DNA from: Nostoc sp. B(2019) | GTDB taxonomy: Bacteria > Cyanobacteriota > Cyanobacteriia > Cyanobacteriales > Nostocaceae | Assembly (NCBI RefSeq): GCF_010091925.1 | Contig: NZ_WVID01000009.1 | Location: 1-64,000, forward strand | Length of the DNA: 64,000 bases | Direction: 5' to 3' | Shown: one piece after another, positions 2,307-8,499 of the stretch | Layout of the letters: each line of letters begins with the position of its first letter | Numbering within the stretch: the stretch's first letter is position 1 | The notes under the pieces: generated by a model | Database searches by the model: none | The model's input: the letters and a program-made list of their open reading frames with translations, nothing else | What the model was told of the DNA's origin: nothing | Program-made: the position numbers and the translations under genes

Positions 2307-3179
2307 TTAAGCAGCACAAAAAATCGGGGTGGGTTTGGAACCTACCCCGATCGCTTCTGATATATTCCGCCCAACAGCTGCCGCTATCGGCTTTAAACTA
2401 TCAACTAGATGCACCATATCTTCTAAGGAAAGCGCTTGACGTGCATCAGAAACAGATTTTTCTGGCTCTGGGTGACACTCAATAATTAATCCGTCTGCTC
2501 CGCAAGCCACCGCAGCTTTAGCCATCGGTGCTACAAGTTCCCGTTTACCTACAGCATGGGAAGGATCTACAATCACAGGCAGGTGAGTTATTTGCTTGAG
2601 TGCTGCGACTGCTCCTAAATCCAAGACGTTGCGTGTGTAATCATCGAAGCTACGGATACCCCTTTCACACAACACTACATCAGGATTTCCGTGACTGAGA
2701 ATGTATTCAGCTGCCATCACGAATTCTTCAATTGTCGCTGCTAAACCACGCTTGAGCAGTATCGGCTTACCAGCTTGCCCTAAAGCTTTAAGCAAGTCGA
2801 AGTTTTGCATATTACGGCTACCAACCTGAAGCATATCAGCATGGGCAGCAACTACTTCAATTTGGGAAATTGACATAACCTCGGTGACAACTGGGATTTG
2901 GTGATGCGATCGCACCATAGCCAAAATTTCCAATCCTTCCTCACCCATACCCTGGAAGGCGTAGGGAGATGTACGCGGTTTGTAGACACCGCCACGCAAG
3001 CCCTGCACGGATGTAGTAGCTAGCTTTTGGGCAACTGTTTCCATTTGCTCTAAGCTCTCAACGGTGCAGGGGCCGCCGATAATTACCACTTCTTCGCCGC
3101 CGAAAGCGACTTTTTCCGAAAGTTTAACGATTGTTTGGTGGTTAGTATGAGATTGTGCAGCAAGTTTAGCGTTAATCAT
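2307..3179 (-). CDS. 3-deoxy-7-phosphoheptulonate (DAHP) synthase, class I-beta type
   Basis: This enzyme condenses phosphoenolpyruvate and erythrose-4-phosphate, the first step of the shikimate pathway to Phe, Tyr and Trp. At 290 residues it matches the short class I-beta/KDO8P-synthase-like core. Visible motifs are GGPCTVES near the start, [11 protein letters not shown] (PEP/E4P binding), [11 protein letters not shown] and [14 protein letters not shown] (metal and substrate loop). I see no clear N-terminal ferredoxin-like regulatory domain, so feedback control may be limited. The chosen ATG has AAGGAG 9 nt upstream. An ATG 8 nt earlier runs into a stop after three codons. Upstream are two aromatic-rich leader peptides and two terminator/antiterminator pairs, suggesting control by transcription attenuation. 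Confidence 0.92.
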
Positions 3180-3211: not shown

Positions 3212-3244
3212 AAAAAAGCCCGGGGCCTTTGAGAAGTTCCGGGC
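3212..3244 (-). promoter_or_regulatory. Attenuator 2: terminator hairpin in the DAHP synthase leader
   Basis: On the minus strand GCCCGG (3244-3239) pairs with CCGGGC (3223-3218), followed by a run of six U. The 5' arm overlaps CCCGGAACT (3243-3235), which is perfectly complementary to AGTTCCGGG (3284-3276) at the end of leader ORF 2. The two pairings exclude each other, as in a terminator/antiterminator switch. The structure lies about 30 nt upstream of the start codon. Confidence 0.72.
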
Positions 3245-3272
3245 GCGTTCTGATTCATCGACATGACGCTAT

Positions 3273-3338
3273 CTACCCGGAACTGATTCTGGGCCAAAAG
3301 TAAAAGCTATAAAAATAGTTACTCAGATAGGTAATCAC
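3273..3338 (-). CDS. Leader peptide 2 (21 aa), aromatic-rich, candidate attenuation peptide
   Basis: This short ORF starts with GTG, has 21 codons and ends in TAG. Eight codons are aromatic: four Tyr, three Phe and one Trp. Seven of them fall in the stretch NYFYSFYFW. AAGGAG lies 12 nt upstream of the GTG, a rather long spacing. The last sense codons (AGT TCC GGG) are the 5' half of the antiterminator that frees the transcript from attenuator 2. A ribosome stalled on the aromatic codons would leave that segment unpaired; a ribosome reaching the stop would mask it. The peptide itself probably has no other function. The role is inferred from layout. Confidence 0.65.
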   Translation of the reverse strand: MITYLSNYFYSFYFWPRISSG

Positions 3339-3356
3339 GATGAGATTATGCTCCTT

Positions 3357-3436
3357 AAAAAACAAAAACCGCAGAGTTTGCTCTGCGGTTCACTGGGCGG
3401 TTCCCATTAGGAAACTCGATTCACTCCCAGTGAACC
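3357..3436 (-). promoter_or_regulatory. Attenuator 1: terminator and competing antiterminator
   Basis: On the minus strand the terminator is AACCGCAGAG (3390-3381) paired with CTCTGCGGTT (3376-3367), with a 4-nt loop and a U-rich tail. The competing hairpin pairs GGTTCACTGGG (3436-3426), inside the end of leader ORF 1, with CCCAGTGAACC (3397-3387), a perfect 11-bp match. They share the bases AACC, so forming one disrupts the other. Confidence 0.75.
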
Positions 3437-3477
3437 ACCCTAAACCAAAAATAAAAGTAAGAATTATTGCTGAACAT
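3421..3477 (-). CDS. Leader peptide 1 (18 aa), aromatic-rich, candidate attenuation peptide
   Basis: This ATG-started ORF encodes MFSNNSYFYFWFRVVHWE and ends in TGA. Eight of 18 residues are aromatic (four Phe, two Tyr, two Trp), with the run YFYFWF in the middle. Its last codons carry the 5' arm of the antiterminator of attenuator 1. No good Shine-Dalgarno sequence is visible just upstream, which is not rare in cyanobacteria. The position, composition and overlap with competing hairpins are what one expects of an attenuation leader peptide for an aromatic biosynthesis gene. Expression of the peptide is not shown by sequence alone. Confidence 0.72.
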   Translation of the reverse strand: MFSNNSYFYFWFRVVHWE

Positions 3478-3797
3478 TTGCGGGGCGCTTATTTAGAACA
3501 TTTAATTTACACCTTTATCCAAAAAGCTATCAGAAACAGTCGGCGGTGTCAAGACCCCCACAACGCCCAAAAAAAGCGATAGACTCATTACAACTGTGGG
3601 AATCAAGACTAGTTGCTTGTTTGCATAGACGAAGAAGACGACTTGTCGTCAGATATTGCCAAAGTTACATAACTTTACCAATATTGTTAGGTCATGGCTA
3701 ACGCGTAATTGAATGATCCAAAATGAATGCTAAAAATTCATCATTCTTACCCAAGTCCTCATTGACCCGATCAAGTTTTTAGGATCACCAGTTGATT

Positions 3798-6006: not shown

Positions 6007-8499
6007 ATGGAACCCATAGCTATTATTGGCATTGGCTGTCGGTTTCCCGGTGCTGATAACCTAGAGTCATTCTGGGATCTTCTGCGGTCTGGTGGGGACG
6101 CCATCACTGAGGTGCCTTCAGACAGATGGGATATCGATGCTTTCTATGACCCAAATCCAGGTATACCAGGCAAAATGAGCACCCGCTGGGGTGGCTTTCT
6201 AAATCAAGTAGATCAATTCGATCCAGGTTTTTTCGGGATTTTGCCACGCAGAGCCAAGCTAATAGACCCCCAGCATAGATTGGTACTAGAAGTTGCTTGG
6301 GAAGCTCTAGAAGATGCTGGAGTAGTACCAGCAAAGCTGGCTGGTAGCAAGACAGGAGTATTTATCGCTATCAGCCATAATGATTACGACAAGATTATAT
6401 GCAAGGATATTTCCCGCGTCAACGCTCACCACGGCCCCAGCACTTATCATTGCATTGCCGCCAATCGCTTGTCTCATGTGTTAGATCTACGAGGCCCAAG
6501 TATGGCTGTAGATACTGCTTGTTCTTCATCACTGGTTGCGGTACATTTGGCTTGCCAGAGTTTACGGACTGGAGAGTCCCATCTGGCGCTAGTTGGTGGC
6601 GTGAGTTTGATTCTGTCGCCAGAGGAAACGATCGCTGCTTCTCATGCGCGTGTTATGGCTCCAGATGGTCGCTGCAAGACTTTTGACGCCAGTACTAACG
6701 GTTATGTTAGAGGTGAAGGTTGCGGCGTAGTTATTCTCAAGCGCCTTGCTGATGCTGTTAAAGACAAAGATAATATCCTGGCTGTAATTAAAGGCTCAGC
6801 AGTTAACCAAAATGGTCTAGGTAATGGACTGACAGCATTCAATGGCCCGGCTCAGCAAGCAGTAATTTCTGAAGCTCTGGAAAATGCCGAAGTCGCACCT
6901 GCCGAAATTAGCTATGTTGAGGTTCACGGTATCGGCACTCCTTTGGGAGATCCCATTGAAGCTAATGCTTTGAAAACAGTGCTGATGCGAGATCGTTCAC
7001 TAGATCAGCCTTGTTGGATTGGCTCGGTTAAGACGAATATTGGCTATCTGGAATCGGCTTCTGCAATGGCTAGCTTGATTAAGGTGGTTCTCTCACTCAA
7101 ACATCAAGAGATTCCAGCACACCTACACCTGAAAAATCTAAATCCCCGCATTTCTTTGGTAGGGACTCCGATTTCTATCCCCACCGAGTGTCAACCTTGG
7201 CCTGTTGATACAACACCCCGCCGGGCCGGAATTAGCGCTTTTGGTTTTGGTGGTACTAATAGCCATTTAATCCTGGAAGAAGCGCCCGTTTTTTCTACAG
7301 CAGTTAGTGATAGCAAACGTCCCCTACACCTATTAACTCTATCTGCAAAAAGTGAGAAGGCACTGCGGGAACTCGCAACCCGTTATGAAATCTATTTGCA
7401 ATCTCACACTGAAGCAGCTTTAGAAGATGTCTGTTTTACTGCTAATGCAGGGCGATCGCATTTTCTCTATCGTCTTGCTGTGGTAACACAGTCTACCACG
7501 CAGCTACGTAAGCAACTGAGCGCTTTTGTTACAGGAAGGGAGACTGTGGGATTAGCCAGCAGTCAAGGACAAACTCCCAAGAGTCGTAAAATAGCGTTTT
7601 TATTCAGCGATCAGAGTTCTGAGTATGTCAACATCGGACAACAATTATACAGAACTCAGCTTGTCTTCCGCCGAACCCTAGACCGTTGCGATGAAATTCT
7701 GCGTCCTTATTTAGAAAAGCCCCTCCTAGAAGTTCTTTACCCTGTATCGGGTAAAACTTCACCTATAAATAAAAATACTTATAACCAACCAGCTTTATTT
7801 GCTTTAGAGTATGCACTAGCTAAATTATGGCAGTCGTGGGGTATAAAACCTTCATCTGTCATGGGTTACGGTGTCGGAGAATATGTCGCTGCTTGCGTTG
7901 CTGGGGTTTTCAGTTTGGAAGATGGACTAAAGTTAATTACCGCAAGAACTGGTTTGATGCAGATACCTTTAGCACAGATAGCAGTAATTGAATCTGCTGT
8001 TAATGGTTGCAATGCGATTGCCACTTTGCCAACCACAGCAAACAAAACACAATATACATTTGAGCAAATTGTCCAAGCAGTAACTTACTCAACCCCCAGT
8101 ATAGACTTAGTTTCTAGTCTTACTGGCAAGTTGGTTACAGATGAGATCGCTACCCCTGATTATTGGTTAAGTCATTTGCAACAGTCAGAGAGATTTGCAT
8201 CTGGATTGGAAACTTTTTCTAAGCATAGTTCGGAAATATACTCGGAAATTGAAGAATTTTCTCAATACTATTCGTCAGATGACGTAGAACTACAACTTCC
8301 CGGTCTGTGTCAAGAAAAGTCAGATTGGCAACAAATACTTGAGAGTTTACGGGAATTATACTTGCTTGGTGCATCGGTAGACTGGTCTAACTTTGACCGA
8401 GACTATCAATGTCGCCGTCTCCAACTGCCGACTTATCCATTTCAGCGCCAGCGTTGTTGGATTGAATTAACTGATAGTACTACTGAGTTATCTCGCTAA
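6007..8499 (+). CDS. Degenerate type I polyketide synthase (KS-AT), probably catalytically dead
   Basis: The 830-residue open frame has a ketosynthase (residues ~1-425), a KS-AT linker, an acyltransferase (~528-745) and the post-AT motif [12 protein letters not shown] (808-818). KS Cys172 (DTACSSS) and His307 (VEVHGIGT) are present. The second catalytic His, normally in NIGHLE, is Tyr347 (NIGYLES). In the AT the GHSxGE motif reads GYGVGE (620-625), so the nucleophilic Ser is Gly622. The usual GQGSQ is DQSSE. About 100 residues are missing, including the catalytic His region. No KR, DH or ACP domain follows. With FAAL and ACP remnants upstream, this looks like a decaying locus, though the frame itself has no stop. 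Confidence 0.85.

Follow-up and report, generated by a model that had tools for sequence, protein, structure and literature searches.

Ribosome-mediated attenuators are known from amino acid operons of the trp, his, leu, phe and ilv type, and they require a ribosome that stays close behind RNA polymerase. The first step of the aromatic pathway is catalyzed by DAHP synthase. At one gene for this enzyme, aroF of Corynebacterium glutamicum, an attenuator leader peptide (Phe-Tyr-Phe) has been predicted, according to the accessible text of PMC4046766. Tandem attenuators are described for mgtCBR of Salmonella, where two short leader ORFs respond to ATP and proline, an arrangement called a singular example in the part of the paper that is accessible (PMC3641672). 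For aromatic operons, the excerpted text of PMC1173090 gives attenuators predicted by a website for aroA(I beta)-tyrA in Thermus and aroA(I alpha)-tyrA in Vibrio, and it gives two predicted attenuator units for a supraoperon of Streptococcus pneumoniae. Tandem terminators, the second with a potential antiterminator, are reported for the rimP leader of Gammaproteobacteria in the excerpt of PMC2965389. As to cyanobacteria, a 2016 survey of leader genes states, in its accessible part, that there were no reliable data on attenuation (PMC4833913).

Here we describe two attenuator-like units that occupy the 300 bp upstream of a Bacillus-type DAHP synthase gene, on the minus strand of the window (the whole 64-kb stretch of DNA that was analysed). 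It is very probable, in our judgement, that they are two ribosome-mediated transcription attenuators in series, which sense charged Phe, Tyr and Trp tRNA and control the DAHP synthase gene.

Anatomy of the two leader units

The features of the locus are collected in Table 1. Scores of the DAHP synthase exceed the curated cut-offs of both family models, NF006421 and TIGR01361. Since this enzyme forms the entry to the pathway of the amino acids that would be sensed, the gene is a structural gene of the kind controlled by ribosome-mediated attenuators. The TTGACA element of the putative promoter starts 75 nt upstream of leader 1, which would place the transcription start about 40 nt before this ORF. 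This promoter is absent from the list of the generic scan of the window; the pattern TTGACN-16/18-TANNNT, at most 110 nt from the leader 1 start, occurs in 76 of 78 Nostocales rows and 39 of 50 class-wide rows, and in 2 of 390 control windows.

Table 1. Features of the DAHP synthase leader and its gene, in window positions, in the direction of transcription.
Feature	Position	Strand	Basis
Sigma-70-type promoter: TTGACA 3552-3547, 17 nt, TAGCTT 3529-3524	3524..3552	-	pattern scan
Leader ORF 1, MFSNNSYFYFWFRVVHWE, 8/18 aromatic	3421..3477	-	sequence, conservation
Antiterminator 1 5' strand (GTGGTTCACTGGG), within leader ORF 1; partner 3397-3385	3426..3438	-	alignment, covariation
Antiterminator 1 3' strand (CCCAGTGAACCGC); final 7 bases shared with terminator 1 arm	3385..3397	-	alignment, covariation
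Intrinsic terminator 1 (GAACCGCAGAG caaa CTCTGCGGTTT), 11 bp, T-rich tail to ~3357	3366..3391	-	terminator scan, covariation
SD-like site of leader 2, AAGGAG, directly 3' of terminator 1	3351..3356	-	sequence
Leader ORF 2, GTG start, MITYLSNYFYSFYFWPRISSG, 8/21 aromatic	3273..3338	-	sequence, conservation
Antiterminator 2 5' strand (AGTTCCGGG), within leader ORF 2; partner 3243-3235	3276..3284	-	alignment, covariation
Antiterminator 2 3' strand (CCCGGAACT); all terminator 2 5' arm bases except the first	3235..3243	-	alignment, covariation
Intrinsic terminator 2: GCCCGG, 15-nt loop, CCGGGC (3244-3218), U run 3217-3212	3212..3244	-	hairpin search, covariation
DAHP synthase (3-deoxy-7-phosphoheptulonate synthase, Bacillus type), presumed target	2307..3179	-	NF006421 7e-121; TIGR01361 1.3e-109

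An earlier note on this DNA had reported two aromatic-rich leader ORFs, and their coordinates, frames and aromatic counts proved right on re-check. The perfect complementarities that it gave for the ORF ends were found as well, 11 bp in leader 1 (GGTTCACTGGG/CCCAGTGAACC) and 9 bp in leader 2 (AGTTCCGGG/CCCGGAACT), each followed by a terminator with a U run. Its further claim, that each ORF end pairs with the 5' arm region of the terminator, applies nearly in full to unit 2, where almost the whole arm is taken up. In unit 1 the 11-bp pairing uses 5 of the 11 terminator arm bases (7 with a G-U/G-C extension), so only part of the arm is paired and exclusion is partial. A different candidate for antiterminator 1, GAGTTT:AAACTC, had been spotted by eye in the window and was rejected because it is not kept in relatives.

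The two units also differ upstream of their ORFs. Of the 78 Nostocales rows, 70 have an SD-like site ahead of leader 2 and none has one ahead of leader 1, and given this difference the two leaders may be initiated differently. In the case of terminator 2, the generic terminator scan, limited to loops of at most 8 nt, gave an overlapping hairpin (3230-3214) in its place. The stem of terminator 2 has 6 bp in this strain versus 9 bp in the relative L004 and others. At 3225-3224 of the minus strand, terminator 2 reads GGCCCCGGGC here, GGTTCCGGGC in L004 and L006, and GGTTTCGGGC in L005; relative to L004 and L006, TT has changed to CC and 6 of their 9 bp are kept. With its stem shortened, unit 2 may be leakier in this strain. 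Runs of short direct repeats (CCCAATGC, GGGGAGT etc.) separate terminator 2 from the gene start in three relatives (L010, L032 and L034).

Within the window the combination of features is rare. With one ORF counted per stop codon on both strands, the whole window has 1569 short ORFs of 10-40 aa. Six of them have at least 6 aromatic residues in 10, and leaders 1 and 2 are the only ones of these with an intrinsic terminator within 100 nt. The fold of the 301-nt leader has a z of -3.56, and 0 of 100 shuffles were equally stable. Rfam families, including amino acid operon leaders, gave no match at gathering score in the whole window. Elsewhere in it, an 830-aa ORF on the plus strand (6007-8499) resembles a polyketide synthase by eye.

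Conservation and covariation of the competing helices

A protein search yielded 80 named Nostocales loci, from which three (L007, L027 and L041) were left out since a contig end cuts their upstream sequence. Both leaders are present in 77 of the 77 named relatives with at least 448 nt upstream, a count that is the union of two leader scans, neither of which alone detects both leaders everywhere. The common peptide forms are MLNTNSYFYFWFRVVHRE for leader 1 and MTYFSSWFYGFYFWPRxSSG for leader 2. An alignment of the leader across Nostocales had been set beforehand as a test, and beside the 77 of 77 result it showed antiterminators and terminators paired in 92.1-99.6% of cells, with double-sided changes in 2 to 10 cells. 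For instance, antiterminator 1 has U-A in five rows where most others have C-G; one pair of antiterminator 2 is limited to 52 of 78 rows. Length changes within the leader ORFs in L059, L080, L069 and L082 are of 3 nt, which is suggestive only with respect to translation.

For a class-wide reading we chose 60 regions by hand, for family spread and to cover genomes matched by only one of the two covariance models introduced below, and added 13 more later. Fifty rows for each leader came from 57 regions (the regions of G307, G299 and G116 being left out); leader ORFs were picked by their V-H or S-G like ends, so that this set is biased to well-kept leaders. All three aromatic residues occur in 50/50 leader 1 and 47/50 leader 2 peptides. 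All 50 elements of either kind have an intrinsic terminator whose 5' arm shares at least 4 nt with a duplex formed by the ORF end. The search for ORF-end duplexes stopped at the terminator 5' arm. By this measure, at most 1 of 100 shuffles reached the complementarity of leader 1 in 37/50 class-wide and 61/78 Nostocales rows, and that of leader 2 in only 20/50 and 20/78, respectively; for leader 2 of the window, 22 of 100 shuffles matched it.

Two alignments across the class, A3 (57 rows) and A4 (45 rows), were made from sequence alone. A4 omits 11 of the 50 leader 2 rows, in which the antiterminator lies in another register. Counted in cells, which are sequences and not events, double-sided changes exceeded all of 500 shuffles (which ignore relatedness) in each of the four helices: antiterminator 1 had 51 cells (shuffled mean 14.1, sd 3.2), terminator 1 had 13 (mean 1.0, sd 1.0) with 100% of cells paired, antiterminator 2 had 20 (mean 6.9, sd 2.1) and terminator 2 had 25 (mean 9.8, sd 3.2). 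When doubly changed pairs are counted instead, terminator 1 alone beats all shuffles; antiterminator 1 was equalled by 38, antiterminator 2 by 385 and terminator 2 by 285 of the 500. Slid controls paired 15-63% of cells, versus 88-100% observed. The two antiterminator 1 pairs that lie deepest in terminator 1 form in only 30/56 and 31/57 class-wide rows.

Individual cases were also noted. In G057, as seen by eye, terminator 1 is GACCCAA with TTGGGTC, not the usual GAACCGCAG type, and the leader end is GAGGGCACC, not GAGGTTCACC, which keeps its match to the changed terminator. Eleven rows, from a Leptolyngbya-like group (an informal label) and a relative, have as antiterminator 2 CCGGGTCAGG or a close variant, with CCTGACCCGG. 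We take these patterns as pointing to selection on both members of each mutually exclusive helix pair. The duplicated attenuation layout put forward in the earlier note thus gains support, with ORFs and pairings conserved far beyond Nostocales and competing helices that covary class-wide.

The leader residues, well conserved in Nostocales, could suggest arrest peptides, in which the nascent chain and a free amino acid ligand would stall the ribosome as in TnaC, and not uncharged tRNA. Class-wide, however, the runs stay aromatic while their residues vary (YFYFW, FYFWWQ and NFFWF in leader 1; WFYGFYFW, YWFFSFFFF and NWYYGFFY in leader 2). That the aromatic character is kept and the exact residues are not favours sensing of tRNA charging over a specific arrest peptide. 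Moreover, close to the stop codons the residues that vary least, V-H for leader 1 and S-G for leader 2, are those whose codons build the antiterminator, and arrest on an abundant ligand would reverse the sign of control with the present layout. We regard arrest peptides as very unlikely.

Association with one DAHP synthase subfamily

Covariance models R1 and R2, built from two Nostocales alignments and with rough E-values, matched 142 and 117 of 388 Cyanobacteriia genomes, respectively. Both are found in 110 genomes, in all 110 on the same contig and strand and in the same order, with a gap of 8-184 nt (median 35.5). The strain's own genome has each of them once, at this locus; an extra R2 match (E 0.55) was taken as chance. 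A sample of 244 genomes from the phylum, whose share of other classes is not shown in the output, gave 26 matches, all in Cyanobacteriia.

DAHP synthase matches at E 1e-90 or better occur in 148/388 genomes. R1 and/or R2 is present in every one of the 144 that have a close orthologue (at least 62% identity); the remaining four matches are 54-55% identical and come without R1 or R2. In 143 of the 144 genomes the leaders lie upstream of DAHP synthase on the same contig and strand, the exception being G261, which has a gene fragment on a different contig. The tally within the 144 is 136 tandem, six leader 1 only and two leader 2 only, made partly by eye through inspection of all 39 one-model-only cases, and counting as tandem three unclear genomes: G321, with an aromatic-poor leader 1; G326, where the leader 1 start falls past the contig end and terminator 1 is present; and G381, where leader 2 has no stop before the terminator. 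Leader 1 only is the state of G314 and of all five matches of family f25. In the two genomes with leader 2 only, G348 and G230, inspection by eye shows a promoter-like TTGACA ahead of leader 2, and leader 1 is missing from the interval.

Five genomes have a leader match without a DAHP synthase match. The gene is cut by the contig end in G109 and G128. In G116 (L163), a deletion has left leader 1 and antiterminator 1 adjoining a fragment of DAHP synthase that covers query residues 46-104, and both leader 2 and the start of the gene are missing. G299 and G307 have weak R2 matches with no DAHP synthase in the stretch, and the former (L185) is a possible decayed leader remnant, with an aromatic stretch and a terminator-2-like hairpin.

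No aromatic leaders were found in the 600 nt (a partial upstream region) before the matched part of the two DAHP synthase paralogues of the strain's own genome. In the stretch L003 76-2286, a second DAHP synthase of this genome (354 aa) lies directly 3' of a trpD-like gene, by eye. This arrangement is consistent with the redundant trp/aro supraoperon of Nostoc/Anabaena, as described in the accessible text of PMC1173090.

The regularity of this association also bears on a deflationary reading, i.e., that we are dealing with ordinary terminators, or with hairpins that affect RNA stability, and that the aromatic ORFs beside them are incidental. Such a reading runs against three observations: aromatic density and a terminator are combined in only 2 of the 1569 short ORFs of the window, leader matches stand alongside DAHP synthase in 144/144 genomes, and the ORF-end pairing covaries. 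We hold it to be extremely improbable. The attenuator pair that we favour would instead be an old, widely inherited cyanobacterial device: on balance, we think it likely that this Phe/Tyr/Trp same-signal pair has been kept with one DAHP synthase subfamily and occasionally reduced to one unit, that it works as a multiplying gate, and that ribosomes closely trail RNA polymerase in these bacteria.

Modelled switching and comparison with known systems

Folding of the nascent RNA was modelled with the ribosome edge assumed to lie 12 nt past the first A-site base and with the RNA ending just after the terminator 5' arm. The antiterminator had a median probability of 0.94-1 when the A site was at least 7 (leader 1) or at least 5 (leader 2) codons before the stop, and of at most 0.08 (window: at most 0.17) when it was nearer. 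The aromatic run of leader 1 extends to the seventh codon before the stop (Phe/Tyr in 63 of 78 rows), preceded by a conserved Trp at eight, and that of leader 2 closes with a Trp, likewise at seven. The modelled switch point would hence fall at the end of the aromatic run in leader 1 and just past it in leader 2, so that a ribosome stopped anywhere in the run would allow the antiterminator and one at the stop codon would prevent it. Among the class-wide leader 2 rows, the lowest tenth have their switch farther upstream (probability 0.03-0.09 at 5-6 codons).

At equilibrium, terminator 1 kept a median probability of 0.73-0.83 with antiterminator 1 free and 0.98-1.0 with it masked. Terminator 2 of the window went from 0.00 to 0.97 two codons beyond the aromatic run; in relatives its median was 0.52-0.96 despite a free antiterminator. 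Since the terminators persist, equilibrium folding was rejected as a full explanation of element 1 and of the majority of element 2 copies. Such weak switching implies that the switch would have to be kinetic, with the antiterminator arising before the terminator. Thermodynamically, the weaker of the two switches would be unit 1. For the alternative pairings proposed in the earlier note, the nascent-RNA model places the switch at or just past the end of the aromatic run, and the effect at equilibrium is weak for terminator 1 especially.

From these observations one may suspect that attenuator 2 is the sole real switch, with leader 1 either modulating weakly or serving as a mostly constitutive terminator that keeps basal expression low. 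Several points would fit: at equilibrium terminator 1 is scarcely weakened by antiterminator 1, the overlap of the two is partial, leader 1 has no SD-like site, and leader 2 stands alone in two genomes. Yet leader 1 is the better conserved of the two (mean column identity 86% versus 75% in Nostocales and 62% versus 49% class-wide), none of the other three helices reaches the covariation score of antiterminator 1, the modelled kinetic switch sits at the end of the leader 1 aromatic run, and leader 1 stands alone in six genomes. We therefore consider a single working switch unlikely.

We sought signs of pausing after the leader stops. A hairpin that at most 5 of 100 shuffles equalled was present in only 7/50 leader 1 and 4/50 leader 2 rows, and these hairpins are mostly no better than shuffles (median z -0.62 and -0.42, respectively). 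A motif RYYRTGC (often GTCATGC or GCCATGC) lies at most 24 nt after the leader 2 stop in 19/50 class-wide rows, which are related, versus a mean of 2.5 and a maximum of 6 in shuffles, and after the leader 1 stop in 0/50. Its counterpart in the window is GTCATGT (3267-3261). It is perhaps a pause site.

On the reading with two working attenuators, events would proceed as follows. RNA polymerase would start about 40 nt upstream of leader 1. With Phe-, Tyr- and Trp-tRNA charged, the ribosome translating the leader would reach the stop and hide the 3' end of the ORF, i.e., the 5' strand of the antiterminator, and the terminator would form and end transcription. With any of the three tRNAs short, the ribosome would stall in the aromatic run and leave the ORF end exposed; this end would pair with the 5' part of the terminator while the terminator 3' arm is still to be made, and transcription would continue. 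Leader 2 would repeat the decision of leader 1, so that the gene would be transcribed only when both terminators have been passed. Since nearly all leaders hold all three aromatics, lack of any one should suffice. We infer leader translation, tRNA charging as the signal, termination in vivo and the multiplicative logic of the series.

If true, the element would be a multiplying gate that answers when any one of three amino acids runs short, and ribosomes would closely trail RNA polymerase in cyanobacteria. Because attenuation requires a close ribosome, the element offers a natural reporter of transcription-translation coupling in these bacteria. It would be a control point for the flow of carbon to Phe, Tyr and Trp, of practical interest for the engineering of aromatic products, and a case of attenuation in cyanobacteria with both covariation and a class-wide association to one gene. 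The duplicated layout, together with natural genomes that have unit 1 only or unit 2 only, makes the contribution of the second attenuator directly testable.

Among the matches listed in a search of the open-access literature other than preprints, we found no description of such an element in cyanobacteria, and no cyanobacterial leader-peptide attenuator is described in the accessible parts of PMC7997468, PMC4916741 and PMC1173090. The novelty claimed in the earlier note is accordingly retained for cyanobacteria, in line with the 2016 statement as excerpted from PMC4833913, and not for tandem leader-ORF attenuators as such, which are known from Salmonella mgtCBR.

The locus shares with the trp, his, leu, phe and ilv attenuators an ORF rich in codons of the end product, an intrinsic terminator before the gene, and an alternative pairing of the ORF end. 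It differs from them in having two full units in series, in its cyanobacterial host, in the three aromatics that nearly every leader holds, and in having no extra hairpin between stop and terminator that beats shuffles. For C. glutamicum aroF, compared by description, the accessible text mentions one leader peptide versus two here (PMC4046766). The aromatic-operon attenuators in the excerpt of PMC1173090 come with no description of leader peptides and no named cyanobacterial case, and the excerpt on the rimP leader describes no aromatic leader peptide, unlike what is found here (PMC2965389). With mgtCBR, as far as the accessible part of its description goes, the locus shares a leader that contains two ORFs, each of which belongs to an attenuator (here by sequence). 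In contrast to mgtCBR, both leaders here hold Phe, Tyr and Trp codons, which speaks against different signals, and the gene is biosynthetic. The mechanism of attenuation is thus of a known kind. What is new, as far as we have searched, is that two units with the same signal stand in tandem, that they occur in this host group and that their conservation reaches so deep.
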